Assembly (NCBI GenBank): GCA_902610655.1
Contig: CACLWL010000002.1
Coordinates: 1-64,000, forward strand
Direction of reading: 5' to 3'
Length of the DNA stretch: 64,000 bases
DNA from: an uncultured Pelagibacteraceae bacterium
GTDB taxonomy: Bacteria > Pseudomonadota > Alphaproteobacteria > Pelagibacterales > Pelagibacteraceae
The translations under genes and the position numbers were made by a program. Shown here one piece after another: positions 13,995-24,924 of this stretch (positions are counted from its first letter, which is position 1; each line of letters opens with the position of its first letter). The notes beneath the pieces were generated by a model, which was not told the origin of the DNA, did not search any database, and saw only the letters and a list, made by a program, of their open reading frames with translations.

Positions 13995-15299
13995 ATGCCA
14001 ATTGTTAATATGTTTTTTAAATCCAATAAAATCCCAGTAAAGACTGAGGAACCAAGAATAAATCAGGATTTAGCCATTATCACTCAGATGAATCAAGAGT
14101 TTGCAACATCTCTTGACTTAACTGATACTTTACAAAATGCTTTGGAAGTTATTATTAAAAGATTAAACGCACAAGCTGCAAATATTTTTCTTATAGAAGA
14201 CAAAAAACAAGTATTTCAATGTATCGCATCCAAATATCAATCTTATCTGGATGAATATGAAATACCTTTAACACAAGGCGTTATGGGTAAAGCTGTTTTA
14301 CAAAAAAAATGTATAAGAGTAGGTGATGTCAGAAAAGATGTAAGAGAAATAGCAGAATTTTATTTTGATTTAGATAATAAAACAAATTTTACAACTTATT
14401 CAGTTTTATGTTCTCCGTTGATTGCAGCCAATGAATGTATTGGAGTAATACACTGTCTGAATAAAAAAACTGGCAATAAGTTGTTTGAAGAAAGCGATAG
14501 GAAATTATTAGAAACATTATCTGCACCTGCTGCTTTAGCTATAAGAAATGCTAAAATGGCAAAAGAACTTATAGATAAAAATAGAATGCAAAAGGAAATT
14601 GAAATTGTTGGAGAGATACAAAAAAATTTACTATCTCAAAATAAAAAAGAAGAAACTTTCCCAATTGCAGGAATAAATATTCCAGCAAAAGTTGTTTCAG
14701 GAGATTTTTATAATTTTTCAGAATTAGGAAACGGGAAATTTGGTTTCGGAGTTGCAGATGTTTCTGGAAAAGGAATCAAATCATCTTTGTTGATGTCCAA
14801 AGCATCTAGTCTGTATAGATGTTTAAGTAAAACTATGTTCTCTGCATCTGAACTTTTAGAATTACTTAATAAAGAAATTTGTGAAACTGCTGCAAGAGGA
14901 ATGTTTGTAACAATGTTAGTTGGAATTTATGATAGTTTAAAAAAAGAACTGCTTTTATCTAATGCAGGTCACGAACCACCTCTTATTTATTCTAAAGATA
15001 AAAAATTTTCAAATTTTACAGAAGCTGGACCACCTTTAGGAATTATGCCGAAGATTAAATACAAAGAGACAAAATTAAAGTTTGATGATAGTTCTATGTA
15101 TATTTTCACAGACGGTATTACAGAAATCAAAGATCCTGGTGGAAACATGCTAGGTGCAGATGGTTTCCAAAATTATATTAAAAAATATCAAGTCAAACCA
15201 AATAATCAAAGATTAAAAATTATGGTTGAAGATATAATCAAGTCTGGAAAAATTCAAAAAGATGATCTAACAATTGTAGTTATCGACTCTTTAAAATGA
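13995..15299 (+). CDS. GAF domain + SpoIIE/PP2C serine phosphatase (RsbU-like)
   Basis: GAF region followed by VVSGDFYNFSELGNGKFGFGVADVSGKGIKSSLLMSKASS and DGITEIKDPGGNMLGADG. Confidence 0.88.
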   Translation: MPIVNMFFKSNKIPVKTEEPRINQDLAIITQMNQEFATSLDLTDTLQNALEVIIKRLNAQAANIFLIEDKKQVFQCIASKYQSYLDEYEIPLTQGVMGKAVLQKKCIRVGDVRKDVREIAEFYFDLDNKTNFTTYSVLCSPLIAANECIGVIHCLNKKTGNKLFEESDRKLLETLSAPAALAIRNAKMAKELIDKNRMQKEIEIVGEIQKNLLSQNKKEETFPIAGINIPAKVVSGDFYNFSELGNGKFGFGVADVSGKGIKSSLLMSKASSLYRCLSKTMFSASELLELLNKEICETAARGMFVTMLVGIYDSLKKELLLSNAGHEPPLIYSKDKKFSNFTEAGPPLGIMPKIKYKETKLKFDDSSMYIFTDGITEIKDPGGNMLGADGFQNYIKKYQVKPNNQRLKIMVEDIIKSGKIQKDDLTIVVIDSLK

Positions 15300-15800: not shown

Positions 15801-16111
15801 ATCTAACACAAAAAAAAATACTCTAACACAAAATATAAACAATAAAATTGAATCTTAAAAAATGTTGATTTTACTTGTTTTTTTAATTTTTCAAAAATTT
15901 TAAAACTCTAACACAAAAATGATTTGTTAATTTGTGTTAGAGTATTGAAAAATTTTTTTGATTTATGATTTTTTTTAAAATTTATTCAATGTTAAAAAAC
16001 CCAATATTTATGCGCCTTATTACAATTACAACCTATAATGGACACAAAAAAATTTTTTTGTGTTAGACATTTTACAAAATTGTGTTAGAGTTTTATTAAA
16101 TTGTGTTAGAG
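15801..16111. repeat. Array of ~7 copies of TTGTGTTAGAG / CTCTAACACAA in both orientations
   Basis: CTCTAACACAA-type at 15801, 15821, 15906; TTGTGTTAGA-type at 15932, 16058, 16080, 16101; spacing 20-22 bp within clusters. Confidence 0.9.
16034..16039 (+). promoter_or_regulatory. Candidate -10 box TATAAT of the pilMN operon
   Basis: Exact TATAAT ~95 bp before the ATG at 16133; no good -35 at 17 bp upstream. Confidence 0.4.
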
Positions 16112-16132: not shown

Positions 16133-18550
16133 ATGGATGACAAAGAGAAAGAAAAGTTCGGTGTCATAATAGATAAGAACAACCAACCTGAAGGCGAAAA
16201 ACCTCAGGTTGAAGATAAACCGTCGGAAAGTTCTGAACAAAATCAAAAAGATGTTAATGAAAATCAAAATTTATCTGAAGATCAACCAAAAGTTGATATT
16301 GTTTCACAAGACGAAACAGAAAAGTCATCAGACAATGTAAATTTTTCATCACCTGAAGAAAATTCACAAGAAAACAAAGTTGAAGTTGCTGAAAAAACTA
16401 ATGAAATTCAAAATGATGAAAAAAATAATGAACAAGAAAAAAAAGAACACCAAGTTATTCATAAAAAAGACGGAAGACTGCATATATATGTGCGGCAAGA
16501 CAAATATAAGGGCGAATTAAAATCAAAAAATTGGGTTGGAAGACTTTATAAAGATGGAAAACAAAAAATTTCATCTTCAGGTACTCCAAATTTAGACGAA
16601 GCAATACCAATTCTTGAAAAATGGTTCGATGATGTTCATTCAGAAAAAGAAAATTTAGAAACACAATCTTCGACACCAACAACAGAAAAAATTGAAACAA
16701 AAACTGAAATAGAAATAGAACCTGAACGACAAATACAAAAACCTATTACTGAACAATCTAAACCAAAAGTAGAAAATGTTGCTACAGTTTCACAAAATTT
16801 AACTTCTGAAGATGCAAGCGAAACAAAACCAAAAAATATTTTAGAAAAATTAAAAAATATAAAGTTTAAAGCTCCATCTTTTGGAAAAGGTGACGTAAAG
16901 AAATTAAATTTTAAACCTAATACAGGAAAAGTTAAAGAAAAGTTTAATAATTTTTTAAAAGCTCGACTTGGAAAAAAAACAGCACAAGGAGAAGAAATTG
17001 TTGGAGTTGAAATTACCAATAAGGAAATAAGACTCTCTCAAATTTCATCTAACAAATCAAATCAATGGGTGATGGATAGATTTTATATTCATCCTATTGA
17101 TTTACCAGATGACGCATTAATTGTTGATCATGCAACAAAAGTAAGTGAGGAATTAAATATTGCTCTACAGAAATCTAAAGTAACAACATCTAATGCTGCA
17201 ATCGCTATTCCTGTTACTAACGCTATTATTAGAGTTGTAACTGCACCTCTTATGAATGATGAGGAATTAAAAAAAGCAATAGATACAAATTCTTTATGGG
17301 AAAACTTGGTTCAACTAACAGATAATCTTGACGATTATTCAATATTCCACCAAGTTATAAATAGAAATCCAAAAGACAATACAATGGATATATTATTTGT
17401 TGCATCGAAACTTACCGATATAAACAATTATACTTCTATAATTAAAAATAGTGGATTAAACCCTGTAATTATCGATGTAAAATGTTTTGCTTTAAAATCT
17501 GCAGTTGATCAAATTAATCAGATCTCAAATAAGACCGAGGATGTAAATTTTACCGCACTATTAGAATTTGGCTTAGACGAAAATTATGTAATGATTTTAT
17601 ATAATAATAACCCAATAATAACCGACATTTTTTTAAGGGGTCAAGATAGAAAAATTTTAAAAGAGTCTAATGATCAAGAAGAAAAAGATGCTTTAGTAAG
17701 AAGATTCATGACACAAGTTAAACAAGCAGTTCAAGATTTTGAGACTAAATATGAAAAAAGAGTAAGGAATATTAAAGTAGTATCTAACCTTGAGAACGTA
17801 GAAGATTATTTATCAAGTTTTAGAAAAAGCCTGGTTAATACAGGATTTAACTTATTTGATCCTTTTGATGGACTTAAAATACCTCAACAATTAGAGGAAA
17901 AAATAAATATCCAAAACAGATCTTATTTCTCAACAGTTGTTGGTTTAGCTTTTAGAAAGCTTGATGTTTTTGGTTACTATAAGTTTGTTACAGCCGTTAA
18001 AAATATAAACCTTCTTCCAAATCGAGAAGGAATGATTAAGCAAAAGAAAATGAAAGCGTTCTCAAATTTTGCTTATAAAGGAATAGTTGGTGCCATAGCA
18101 GGTGTGTATCTAATTTTGTTTGGTTTAGCTTTTTGGAATATATTTAGTTACAATAGTAAGTTGTCTGGTTATCAAGCAGTTTTAACAGAGCACGATCAAA
18201 CAAAAAAGCAGCTTTCCAAGGTTAATAAGGAATTAAAAAAAATGACTACAACTTTAAAATTAAGTAATAGTTTGAAATCAAATAAAGATTTAAGTTATAG
18301 AGTGTTGGCCCAGATCGCATCAAGCGTGCCAAATAGAATAAAATTTAATTCAGTTGATTACAATGGTAAATCAGAAATAATAATAACAGGTATAGCTGCT
18401 GGAGATAATGATATTTTACAACTTATTAGAAATCTGCAATCTAAAAGTTTAATTAATCAGGCATCACTTTCTTCAATGAAAATGCCAAATGCAAAAGCAG
18501 GTGAACAAATTATGAAAGGATTTAAAATTTTTGTAAAAGTAAGTGGATAA
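16133..18550 (+). CDS. PilM-PilN fusion protein with extra N-terminal region
   Basis: Middle part PilM-like (VGVEITNKEIRLSQIS...AAIAIPVTNAIIRV...LLEFGLDENYVMIL), then INLLPNREGMIKQKK + TM + coiled coil as in PilN. Confidence 0.8.
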   Translation: MDDKEKEKFGVIIDKNNQPEGEKPQVEDKPSESSEQNQKDVNENQNLSEDQPKVDIVSQDETEKSSDNVNFSSPEENSQENKVEVAEKTNEIQNDEKNNEQEKKEHQVIHKKDGRLHIYVRQDKYKGELKSKNWVGRLYKDGKQKISSSGTPNLDEAIPILEKWFDDVHSEKENLETQSSTPTTEKIETKTEIEIEPERQIQKPITEQSKPKVENVATVSQNLTSEDASETKPKNILEKLKNIKFKAPSFGKGDVKKLNFKPNTGKVKEKFNNFLKARLGKKTAQGEEIVGVEITNKEIRLSQISSNKSNQWVMDRFYIHPIDLPDDALIVDHATKVSEELNIALQKSKVTTSNAAIAIPVTNAIIRVVTAPLMNDEELKKAIDTNSLWENLVQLTDNLDDYSIFHQVINRNPKDNTMDILFVASKLTDINNYTSIIKNSGLNPVIIDVKCFALKSAVDQINQISNKTEDVNFTALLEFGLDENYVMILYNNNPIITDIFLRGQDRKILKESNDQEEKDALVRRFMTQVKQAVQDFETKYEKRVRNIKVVSNLENVEDYLSSFRKSLVNTGFNLFDPFDGLKIPQQLEEKINIQNRSYFSTVVGLAFRKLDVFGYYKFVTAVKNINLLPNREGMIKQKKMKAFSNFAYKGIVGAIAGVYLILFGLAFWNIFSYNSKLSGYQAVLTEHDQTKKQLSKVNKELKKMTTTLKLSNSLKSNKDLSYRVLAQIASSVPNRIKFNSVDYNGKSEIIITGIAAGDNDILQLIRNLQSKSLINQASLSSMKMPNAKAGEQIMKGFKIFVKVSG

Positions 18551-22976: not shown

Positions 22977-24215
22977 ATGGAAGCCTATACATATAAAGGA
23001 ATATCAGAGGGAAAATACGTTGAAGGTGAAATAGAAGCTTTAAATCAAGACGAAGCATCTTTTAAACTAAAAGAACAAAAAATAATAATCACTAACTTAA
23101 TAAAGTCTGCAAAGAAAAAAGCGGCTAAAAAGGAAAAAACAAAAAGTAAAGGATTATCTCTTTTTGGTAAAAAGAAAGTTAAAGTCGAGGAAATATTAAT
23201 ATTTTCAAAACAATTCGCTACAATGGTAAAGGCAGGTTTACCTATTTTACAAACACTTGCTATGTTAAGAGACCAACTAGAAGGTCCCGCTATAAAGGAA
23301 GTGGTTGAAGATATTAGAAAAAGCTTAGAGGGTGGTGTTACATTATCTAAATGCTTTGAAAAATATCCACAATATTTTGACAATGTTTATGTTAACTTAA
23401 TTAAAGCTGGAGAGGCTAGCGGTAAGTTAGATGTTTTTTTATTAAAAATTGTAGATGATTTAGAAAAAAAAGAAAAAATAAAGAAGAAAATTAAAGGTGC
23501 ATTAATGTATCCATCTATAATGTTTACAGTTGCAATTACTGTCAGCGCGTTTATGTTAATTAAAGTAGTCCCAGTTTTTGCCAACATGTATGACGGAATG
23601 GGAATAGCTCTTCCAAAACCTACAGCAGTGATTATGAATATGAGCAACTTCTTAAGGGGAACAGGTGGTTTAATTCTATTGATTACTATAATTGGCGGAT
23701 ATGGATTATTTAAATATCTTACAACAAAAAATGAAGCTATTAGGTACAGATGGCATAAACAAGTATTAAAAGTTCCAGTATTTGGTGATTTAATATTAAA
23801 ATCTGTACTAGCACAAATTTCATTGATCATGGGTAACTTAAGTGCTGCAGGAGTAAACTTACTTGAAAGTATTGAGATTGCAAAATCTGTAAGTAAAAAT
23901 GTTGTTGTAACCGAAGCTTTAGAAAATGTTAAGAAAGGAGTTTTTTCAGGTGACACATTGACAAAATTATTTTTAAAAGAACCATTGTTTCCGCCTACTT
24001 TTAGTCAGCTTATCTCTGTTGGTGAGCAAACTGGTCAGCTAGATGAAATGTTTAATTCTGTTGCAATATATTATGAAGCAGAATTTGATACTGCAGTTGA
24101 TAACATGTCTAGTTTGATTGAACCGATCATGATTGTTTTTATGGGATTGATGATTGGTGGCTTGATGATTGCAATGTATTCACCGATATTTAATGTTGGT
24201 GCATTAATTGGCTAA
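22977..24215 (+). CDS. pilC: Type IV pilus inner-membrane platform PilC (GspF family)
   Basis: FSKQFATMVKAGLPILQTLAML, ALMYPSIMFTVA, FPPTFSQLISVGEQTGQLDEMF. Confidence 0.93.
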   Translation: MEAYTYKGISEGKYVEGEIEALNQDEASFKLKEQKIIITNLIKSAKKKAAKKEKTKSKGLSLFGKKKVKVEEILIFSKQFATMVKAGLPILQTLAMLRDQLEGPAIKEVVEDIRKSLEGGVTLSKCFEKYPQYFDNVYVNLIKAGEASGKLDVFLLKIVDDLEKKEKIKKKIKGALMYPSIMFTVAITVSAFMLIKVVPVFANMYDGMGIALPKPTAVIMNMSNFLRGTGGLILLITIIGGYGLFKYLTTKNEAIRYRWHKQVLKVPVFGDLILKSVLAQISLIMGNLSAAGVNLLESIEIAKSVSKNVVVTEALENVKKGVFSGDTLTKLFLKEPLFPPTFSQLISVGEQTGQLDEMFNSVAIYYEAEFDTAVDNMSSLIEPIMIVFMGLMIGGLMIAMYSPIFNVGALIG

Positions 24216-24625
24216 ATTCTTTTTGTTAAAACTAAATGATTTACCCATTGCTGCTGATCTTTTTTAAAAACGGCATCGTCCATAATTTGTTTGATAAAAT
24301 AAGTTCCTAATCCCCCTGGCTTAATATCATCTAGCTTTCTGTGTTGTATGTTTTCAGATACAACTGGTTTACCTTTATCATAAAAACCTATTTCTAACTG
24401 ATTGTCTTTCATGGAAATTTTTATTTGCATATGATCCTTTGTCTCTTCAACACCTTTATATGCATGCTTAACAATATTTTGTGCTGCTTCTGCAATGGCT
24501 AGGACTAATTCATCTTTAAGATCTTTATTTAAATTTAACTTATCAAATACATCTCTTGAAAAAGTTCTTACCTCTTTTAAACTTCCGCTATGTACTAAAA
24601 AATCTTTAGATTCTGATATATCCAT
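24212..24625 (-). CDS. Anti-sigma regulatory factor, RsbW-like HATPase
   Basis: ELVLAIAEAAQNIVKHAYKG (N-box), GGLGTYFIKQIMDDAVF (G-box). Confidence 0.85.
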   Translation of the reverse strand: MDISESKDFLVHSGSLKEVRTFSRDVFDKLNLNKDLKDELVLAIAEAAQNIVKHAYKGVEETKDHMQIKISMKDNQLEIGFYDKGKPVVSENIQHRKLDDIKPGGLGTYFIKQIMDDAVFKKDQQQWVNHLVLTKRI

Positions 24626-24924
24626 TACTCTAAGTTTAGTATTTGCTCTAATTTAGCCATCATAATAACTTTTAGAACAGATTTACTCACCTCTTTGACT
24701 ACAACTTTAGTATTTGACTCTAATGCTTTTTGATGACTTTCTATTAATACAGAAATACCCGAGGAATCCATATAAGACACATCTTTTAAATTTAAGTGAA
24801 CTTCTTTGCCAGTTTCAACAAGAGGTAAAATTACTTCTTTAGCCTTTTCTGTCACATCCATATCAATTTCACCATTTAAAAAAACAGTTGCAATGTTACC
24901 CTCTTCAGAAATTTTATAACTCAT
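24625..24924 (-). CDS. STAS-domain anti-anti-sigma factor
   Basis: NGEIDMDVTEKAK...VHLNLKDVSYMDSSGISVLI with the phosphorylatable DSSG motif; stop/start overlap with the kinase gene. Confidence 0.9.
   Translation of the reverse strand: MSYKISEEGNIATVFLNGEIDMDVTEKAKEVILPLVETGKEVHLNLKDVSYMDSSGISVLIESHQKALESNTKVVVKEVSKSVLKVIMMAKLEQILNLE

Follow-up and report, generated by a model that had tools for sequence, protein, structure and literature searches.

A putative attP-like operator array upstream of a PilM-PilN fusion gene with an integrase-type domain in Pelagibacter

The arm-binding domain is the N-terminal part of tyrosine integrases that reads the accessory arm sites (PMC8138268). In prophage KplE1 the integrase IntS is an autorepressor whose promoter and arm sites overlap (PMC2951348). 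In type IVa pili, PilM and PilN (PF11104 and PF05137) head the pil cluster, and the locus described here is alike in this respect, with PilO/P/Q/B/C-like ORFs next; it differs in that PilM and PilN form a single polypeptide with an additional DNA-binding-type domain. One-component regulators of the CadC/ToxR type carry a cytosolic DNA-binding domain on a membrane-spanning protein and are found near their own operon. The PilM-PilN fusion resembles them in these points, whereas its DNA-binding fold and origin differ and its membrane part belongs to the structure of the type IV pilus machine. Our literature searches, which drew mainly on papers available without subscription, returned no description of a PilM-PilN-integrase-domain fusion or of its upstream array.

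The PilM-PilN fusion and its integrase-type domain

The window, i.e., the whole stretch of 64,000 nucleotides analysed, originates from a Pelagibacter (SAR11) genome of 1.07 Mb that is 82% complete. The gene of interest and the domain within it are located as follows.

16133..18550, plus strand: pilMN, encoding a PilM-PilN fusion of 805 aa, with PF11104 at aa 291-495 and PF05137 at aa 723-801
16454..16633, plus strand: integrase arm-binding-type domain (aa 108-167), based on alignments to integrase N-termini and an AlphaFold2 (AF2) model

PilMN starts with an acidic, variable N-terminal stretch, followed by the ∼60-aa integrase-type domain, a variable linker, PilM, a TM segment and PilN. The PF11104 (PilM_2) match reached 73.1 bits against a cut-off of 27, and the NCBIfam match to TIGR01175 (85.5 bits) fell below the cut-off of 133. 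Among 17 relatives the mean identity was 95% in the domain, 20% and 28% in the stretches flanking it, 82% in PilM and 63% in the PilN part. The AlphaFold2 model of the domain had four strands and one helix (beta-beta-beta-beta-alpha) with a mean pLDDT of 80. Besides the domain, Pfam scans of the window protein and its relatives detected PilM and PilN only, and neither PF00589 nor a core-binding domain was present. Because it has no catalytic domain, PilMN is not an integrase.

When the domain alone was compared with Pfam and with PDB sequences, no significant family was obtained, and its sole match in PHROGs was a family of unknown function (E 5.6e-4). In genome G146, a tyrosine integrase of 423 aa (PF00589; phrog_1 integrase) that adjoins tRNA-Leu(CAA) has the same domain as its N-terminus. 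Aligned with PilM domains, this N-terminus gave 54-62% identity; across relatives the identity was mostly 38-62%, depending on the relative, with E-values of about 1e-16 to 1e-22, and a profile made from PilM domains alone matched the G146 integrase at 6.7e-25. A second integrase with the domain (G838, 418 aa), also adjoining a tRNA-Leu, was obtained from an order-wide search. In a class-wide profile search a single match fell outside the Pelagibacterales, to the N-terminal part of an ORF resembling an integrase (E 3.8e-4), and neither the domain nor the G146 integrase had a match in phage genome records. The best PDB match found by Foldseek was 3rmp, an N-terminal domain by which a P4-like integrase recognises attP (weak, E 0.44), and the best viral match was a phage integrase (weak, E 0.04). 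These matches are not significant alone, but point the same way as the sequence homology.

Judged from the alignments, the PilMN domain is homologous to the N-terminal domain of tyrosine integrases and, by its position and the weak fold matches, it is probably an arm-binding domain. It resembles the arm-binding domains of the lambda Int N-terminus and of HPI/P4-like integrases (PDB 3rmp) in this homology and possibly also in a mostly beta fold with one C-terminal helix, the arm-binding fold being a three-stranded sheet that packs against such a helix. In contrast to these, it is fused to PilM-PilN and not to core-binding and catalytic domains, it is internal in most lineages and not at the extreme N-terminus, and no recombination partner site was identified.

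Several other profile hits did not hold. The match that suggested another copy of the domain, on SecD in G042, was false, as was the match in G073, which belongs to a CoA-transferase-like protein. A third integrase suggested by its length (G970:C21) was found to be a contig-truncated pilM. Weak, stop-interrupted matches to the domain profile at G117:C9:29790-29921 and G920:C13:8171-8296 are possibly remnants of an integrase or a pilM; a second local profile search did not confirm them.

Architecture of the array

The initial annotation described seven near-identical copies of a short motif in front of the pil genes, three on the minus and four on the plus strand. All seven were recovered as exact copies of the 10-mer TTGTGTTAGA, at 15802, 15822 and 15907 (minus) and at 15932, 16058, 16080 and 16101 (plus). 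The absence of further exact copies, noted before for the window, extends to the whole 1.07-Mb genome, in which the exact 10-mer is present seven times, always at 15802-16110 before pilMN; the motif is confined to the array and not common in the genome. When one mismatch to the extended 12-mer was allowed, the remaining genome matches were dispersed singles at control level. A genome-wide regulon is ruled out, as the exact motif is absent elsewhere in the genome. Relatives found by sequence were Pelagibacteraceae single-cell genomes, and 614 sites in 109 unique upstream regions, chosen by the exact 10-mer TTGTGTTAGA, gave the extended 12-bp consensus WTTGTGTTAGAG. The sites in the window group into three clusters, A, B and C.

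15801..15812, minus strand: arm-type-like site A1, TTTGTGTTAGAT (PWM 15.0); cluster A is kept in relatives
15821..15832, minus strand: arm-type-like site A2, TTTGTGTTAGAG (PWM 22.1), 20 bp from A1; cluster A is kept in relatives
15906..15917, minus strand: site B1, left half of the central inverted pair (PWM 22.1)
15931..15942, plus strand: site B2, right half of the central inverted pair (PWM 22.1)
16057..16068, plus strand: site C1, TTTGTGTTAGAC (PWM 19.4)
16079..16090, plus strand: site C2 (PWM 20.8), 22 bp from C1
16100..16111, plus strand: site C3 (PWM 20.8), 21 bp from C2 and 21 bp 5' of the pilM start codon

The spacings of 20, 22 and 21 bp and the 13-bp inverted repeat (15905-15917/15931-15943) that had been reported earlier were both found in the sequence. 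The copy at 15801 had been given as CTCTAACACAA; its actual flank is one base off and reads ATCTAACACAA. The 22-bp palindrome described at 16042-16063 is present, but relatives do not share it and it looks incidental. In site C1, the copy nearest the putative promoter, the 11th base was C in 88% of relatives.

The three clusters recur in relatives, with two sites in A, an inverted pair or trio in B, and two or three sites in C, which occupies the last ∼75-100 bp before the start codon. In some lineages nearly all sites are in minus orientation. The spacings of adjacent sites of the same orientation were concentrated at 20-23, 84-87, 116-118, 126-130, 138-139 and 148-151 bp, and the sites of inverted pairs were 24-25 or 34-35 bp apart. 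The best-fitting period of the site spacings was 10.7 bp (Rayleigh test at 10.5 bp on distinct values, p = 0.002-0.004) and, between lineages, the spacing shifts by steps of one helical turn.

Between the clusters the pattern TTGATW-N7-CTTTTT, which was set after the alignment had been viewed and was modelled on the lambda H' site, was found in either orientation. It occurred exactly in 38 of the 131 intervals (0.05 expected) and with at most one mismatch in 78/131 (4.25 expected). The lambda record reads TTGATAAGCAATGCTTTTT at the H' site, which matches the pattern. The corresponding elements of the window, together with a conserved element before C1, are listed below.

15865..15883, plus strand: IHF-like (lambda H'-like) site TTGATTTTACTTGTTTTTT in the A-B gap, one mismatch to TTGATW-N7-CTTTTT; the element is kept in the A-B interval of relatives
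15958..15976, plus strand: weak IHF-like candidate in the B-C gap, one mismatch; displaced from the position conserved in relatives
16031..16045, plus strand: conserved element ACCTATAATGGACAC (family consensus ACCCAAAATGANCATACAAC, also given as ACCYAAAATGANCATACAAC), at a fixed distance 5' of C1; possible promoter element

The genome encodes an IHF-alpha-like protein, the gene of which is 3' of a fatty-acid synthesis gene and 5' of a MerR-like gene, and an IHF-beta-like protein encoded after an rpsA-like gene; both scored below the NCBI cut-off. The element ACCCAAAATGANCATACAAC before C1 may be a promoter. A sigma-70 promoter scan resulted in no convincing candidate, and the element showed no clear promoter match. 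The TATAAT box that the initial annotation placed between the clusters does fall within this conserved element, at 16035, but it is not established as a promoter. At the same element a dyad (TGACC-TAAAAT-GGTCA) was observed in some relatives only, and a conserved element, ACCYAAAATGANCAT, is located between clusters B and C. Both were weighed as a possible attP-type core site, with inverted core-type half-sites around an overlap.

As read from the sequence, the clustered arm-type-like sites in both orientations have the layout of an attP or intasome. Short repeated sites, clusters of mixed orientation and IHF-like sites between them are features that the locus has in common with the DNA partners of integrase arm-binding domains. 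Similar sites were also detected at the integrases themselves. A matrix made from pilM arrays alone identified five sites of at least 8.5 bits in the 5.1-kb island of G146, where 0.035 were expected from 288 kb of background, the 8.5-bit threshold having been picked after the scores were seen. These sites are located beside the integrase start, just 3' of the integrase gene and close to the island's opposite end. At the G838 integrase the pilM matrix marks positions -56, -24 and +1431. The integrase-flanking sites are mostly TTGTGTAAGA, one base off the TTGTGTTAGA of the pilM sites. The island in G146 (L118/L163; G146:C1, about 109.2-114.4 kb) spans ∼5 kb and contains the tyrosine integrase, a resolvase-like recombinase and a tRNA-Leu(CAA) of its own; close to each of its ends, arm-like sites occur in pairs.

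The initial annotation offered a leader-RNA repeat bound by an RNA-binding protein as an alternative, and three copies do probably fall inside the pilM leader or close to it. Four of the seven sites, however, lie well upstream, three of these in opposite orientation, and the spacing tracks the helical period of DNA. Moreover, the lineages with nearly all sites on the minus strand and the occurrence of the same motif in integrase att regions, probably as arm sites, argue against it. With copies on both strands, orientation, position and helical phasing leave this explanation virtually ruled out.

Co-occurrence of array and domain

The domain profile matched 61 of 300 Pelagibacter genomes. A strict phased pattern, TTGTGTTAGAN{9,14}TTGTGTTAGA, was run on the same 300 genomes, and phased site pairs were present in 56/61 genomes with the domain and in 0/239 without it, counts that come from related genomes and hence are not independent events. 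The reversed control pattern had no matches in the 300 genomes. Four of the five domain-bearing genomes without a phased pair had variant sites (G154, G175, G236 and G146), and the fifth (G285) had no upstream sequence, as its contig ends 9 bp 5' of the gene. In G154 about fifteen variant sites lie upstream of pilM, G175 and G236 combine a divergent domain with variant arrays, and in G146 the domain sits on the integrase. In G301 the phased pair and the domain are on different contigs, and the pair is left unassigned. Arrays were present upstream of domain-bearing pilM in relatives, and the six domain-less pilM loci (L012-L017) had no site. In the order-wide search, three other genera of the family had the domain on pilM, with arrays at 7/7 such loci fetched.

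In the window the array is located downstream of a SpoIIE-type phosphatase gene and a small ORF. In relatives it is also found downstream of a large ORF resembling PilY1 (by-eye call), or between divergent pilT and pilM. The association of array and domain persists across these gene contexts and in other genera. Shared ancestry alone is insufficient to account for this, because the context changes, array and domain are absent jointly, and the association extends to other genera. The short PilM relatives of the same genus have neither domain nor array. In a PilM tree, in which some branches were poorly supported and some truncated loci were left unplaced, the short, array-less forms were nested within domain-bearing ones, with a support of 0.975 for the clade including L091. 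Because of this nesting, domain and array were probably lost together in the short forms.

The sites may be considered a target in the host, or a decoy, for the integrases of phages or islands, with the PilM domain as a passive relic or site protector. The genus does have integrases with similar domains and near-identical sites, and genome G838 has both. The arrays, however, follow the PilM domain and not the integrases (integrases in 2 genomes, arrays in dozens), the integrase islands are at tRNA-Leu and not at pilM, and the strong conservation of the PilM domain argues against a relic. This explanation is very improbable.

Some loci deserve separate mention. The sites in G154 (L162, G154:C20) appear as if the array had been duplicated, and L092 is similar. 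In L095, on a single-cell contig, a pilM with the domain is linked to a SpoIIE gene in inverted orientation, probably an amplification chimera, and L052 is a typical Pelagibacter pilM locus on a contig labelled as a Gammaproteobacteria MAG, which is probably mis-binned. In the window, a GAF-SpoIIE phosphatase is encoded upstream of the pil operon (13995-15299) and ORFs resembling a HATPase-type anti-sigma kinase and a STAS antagonist lie downstream on the minus strand (24212-24924). Together these could form a partner-switching module around the pilus cluster.

Possible modes of action of the array

The most likely reading is that the array is an attP-like operator that has been domesticated, and that PilMN uses it, together with IHF, to autoregulate the pil operon. 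The locus would work like an attP arm region with autoregulation, in which the domain is, by its alignments, a homologue of integrase N-termini and the protein is not an integrase. The predicted binding of PilMN to the array is strongly supported on comparative grounds, by co-occurrence and the shared motif, and we infer looping, repression and a response to the assembly state. The 12-bp sites WTTGTGTTAGAG in clusters A, B and C would be bound by the integrase-derived domain of PilMN, encoded directly downstream. IHF would bend the DNA at the H'-like sites between clusters, and several PilMN molecules would bridge the clusters into a looped, intasome-like complex that has no catalytic domain. 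A cooperative DNA-binding regulator of pilus biogenesis had already been proposed in the initial annotation; helical-turn spacing steps, sites in both orientations that flank the likely promoter region, and IHF-like sites support it well. The probable binder, an integrase-type domain on PilM-PilN encoded by the very next gene, had been overlooked there.

The location of all seven exact genome sites at one operon is as expected for an autoregulator. Occupancy of the array would most likely repress the pilM operon, because cluster C falls within ∼75 bp 5' of the start codon, with the promoter element just upstream of or within it. Such negative feedback is probable also because cluster C coincides with the likely transcription start or follows it closely and the integrase precedent is autorepression. 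By this feedback the pilus platform protein would sense how much of it is present, or how much is left unassembled at the membrane, and adjust pil expression accordingly. Like IntS of KplE1, PilMN would have its arm sites, here putative, upstream of its own gene, with IHF in the parent system; in contrast to IntS, the regulated product is a pilus assembly platform protein and there is no excision or integration.

The sequence signature expected of repression would be no different under activation or anchoring. As an activator, PilMN with IHF would switch the pil promoter on by positive feedback. Clusters A and B are upstream of the promoter region, as is typical of activator sites, and IHF is described as having a part in pilin gene control in Neisseria (PMC6528607). 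In contrast, cluster C, at or downstream of the likely start site, has the position of a repressor site and the integrase precedent is repression (PMC2951348), and we consider activation quite unlikely.

The chief rival of autoregulation is anchoring, in which the PilMN domain on the array would hold the locus at the membrane, tethered to the base of the pilus, for positioning or for coupled transcription-translation-insertion, with little effect on transcription. It is suggested by a binding-type domain that is joined by long variable linkers to a membrane-spanning assembly protein, and by the confinement of the array to one chromosomal locus, where one relative has about 15 sites and a simple operator would need fewer. 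However, the sites surround the operon start at fixed distances to the conserved promoter-like element, and cluster C is inside the last ∼75 bp before the start codon. Anchoring in place of autoregulation appears unlikely, but both could coexist. A combined scheme is put forward tentatively: with a captured integrase arm-binding module and an attP-like array, the inner-membrane platform of the pilus might be a DNA-looping complex that anchors its own locus and tunes expression to the assembly state, in effect a membrane-attached switch made of an intasome that lacks catalysis.

SAR11 bacteria, which rank among the ocean's most abundant cells, possess very few dedicated transcription regulators. 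If autoregulation through the array is true, a pilus assembly protein would be its own regulator, with a domain and a DNA architecture from the integrase of a mobile element, and co-opted recombination machinery would have kept its arm sites and IHF-like sites and lost recombination. The many naturally varied protein-site pairs, with TTGTGTTAGA at PilM and mostly TTGTGTAAGA flanking integrases, would serve studies of arm-site recognition, and the untouched question of type IV pilus control in SAR11 becomes directly testable.
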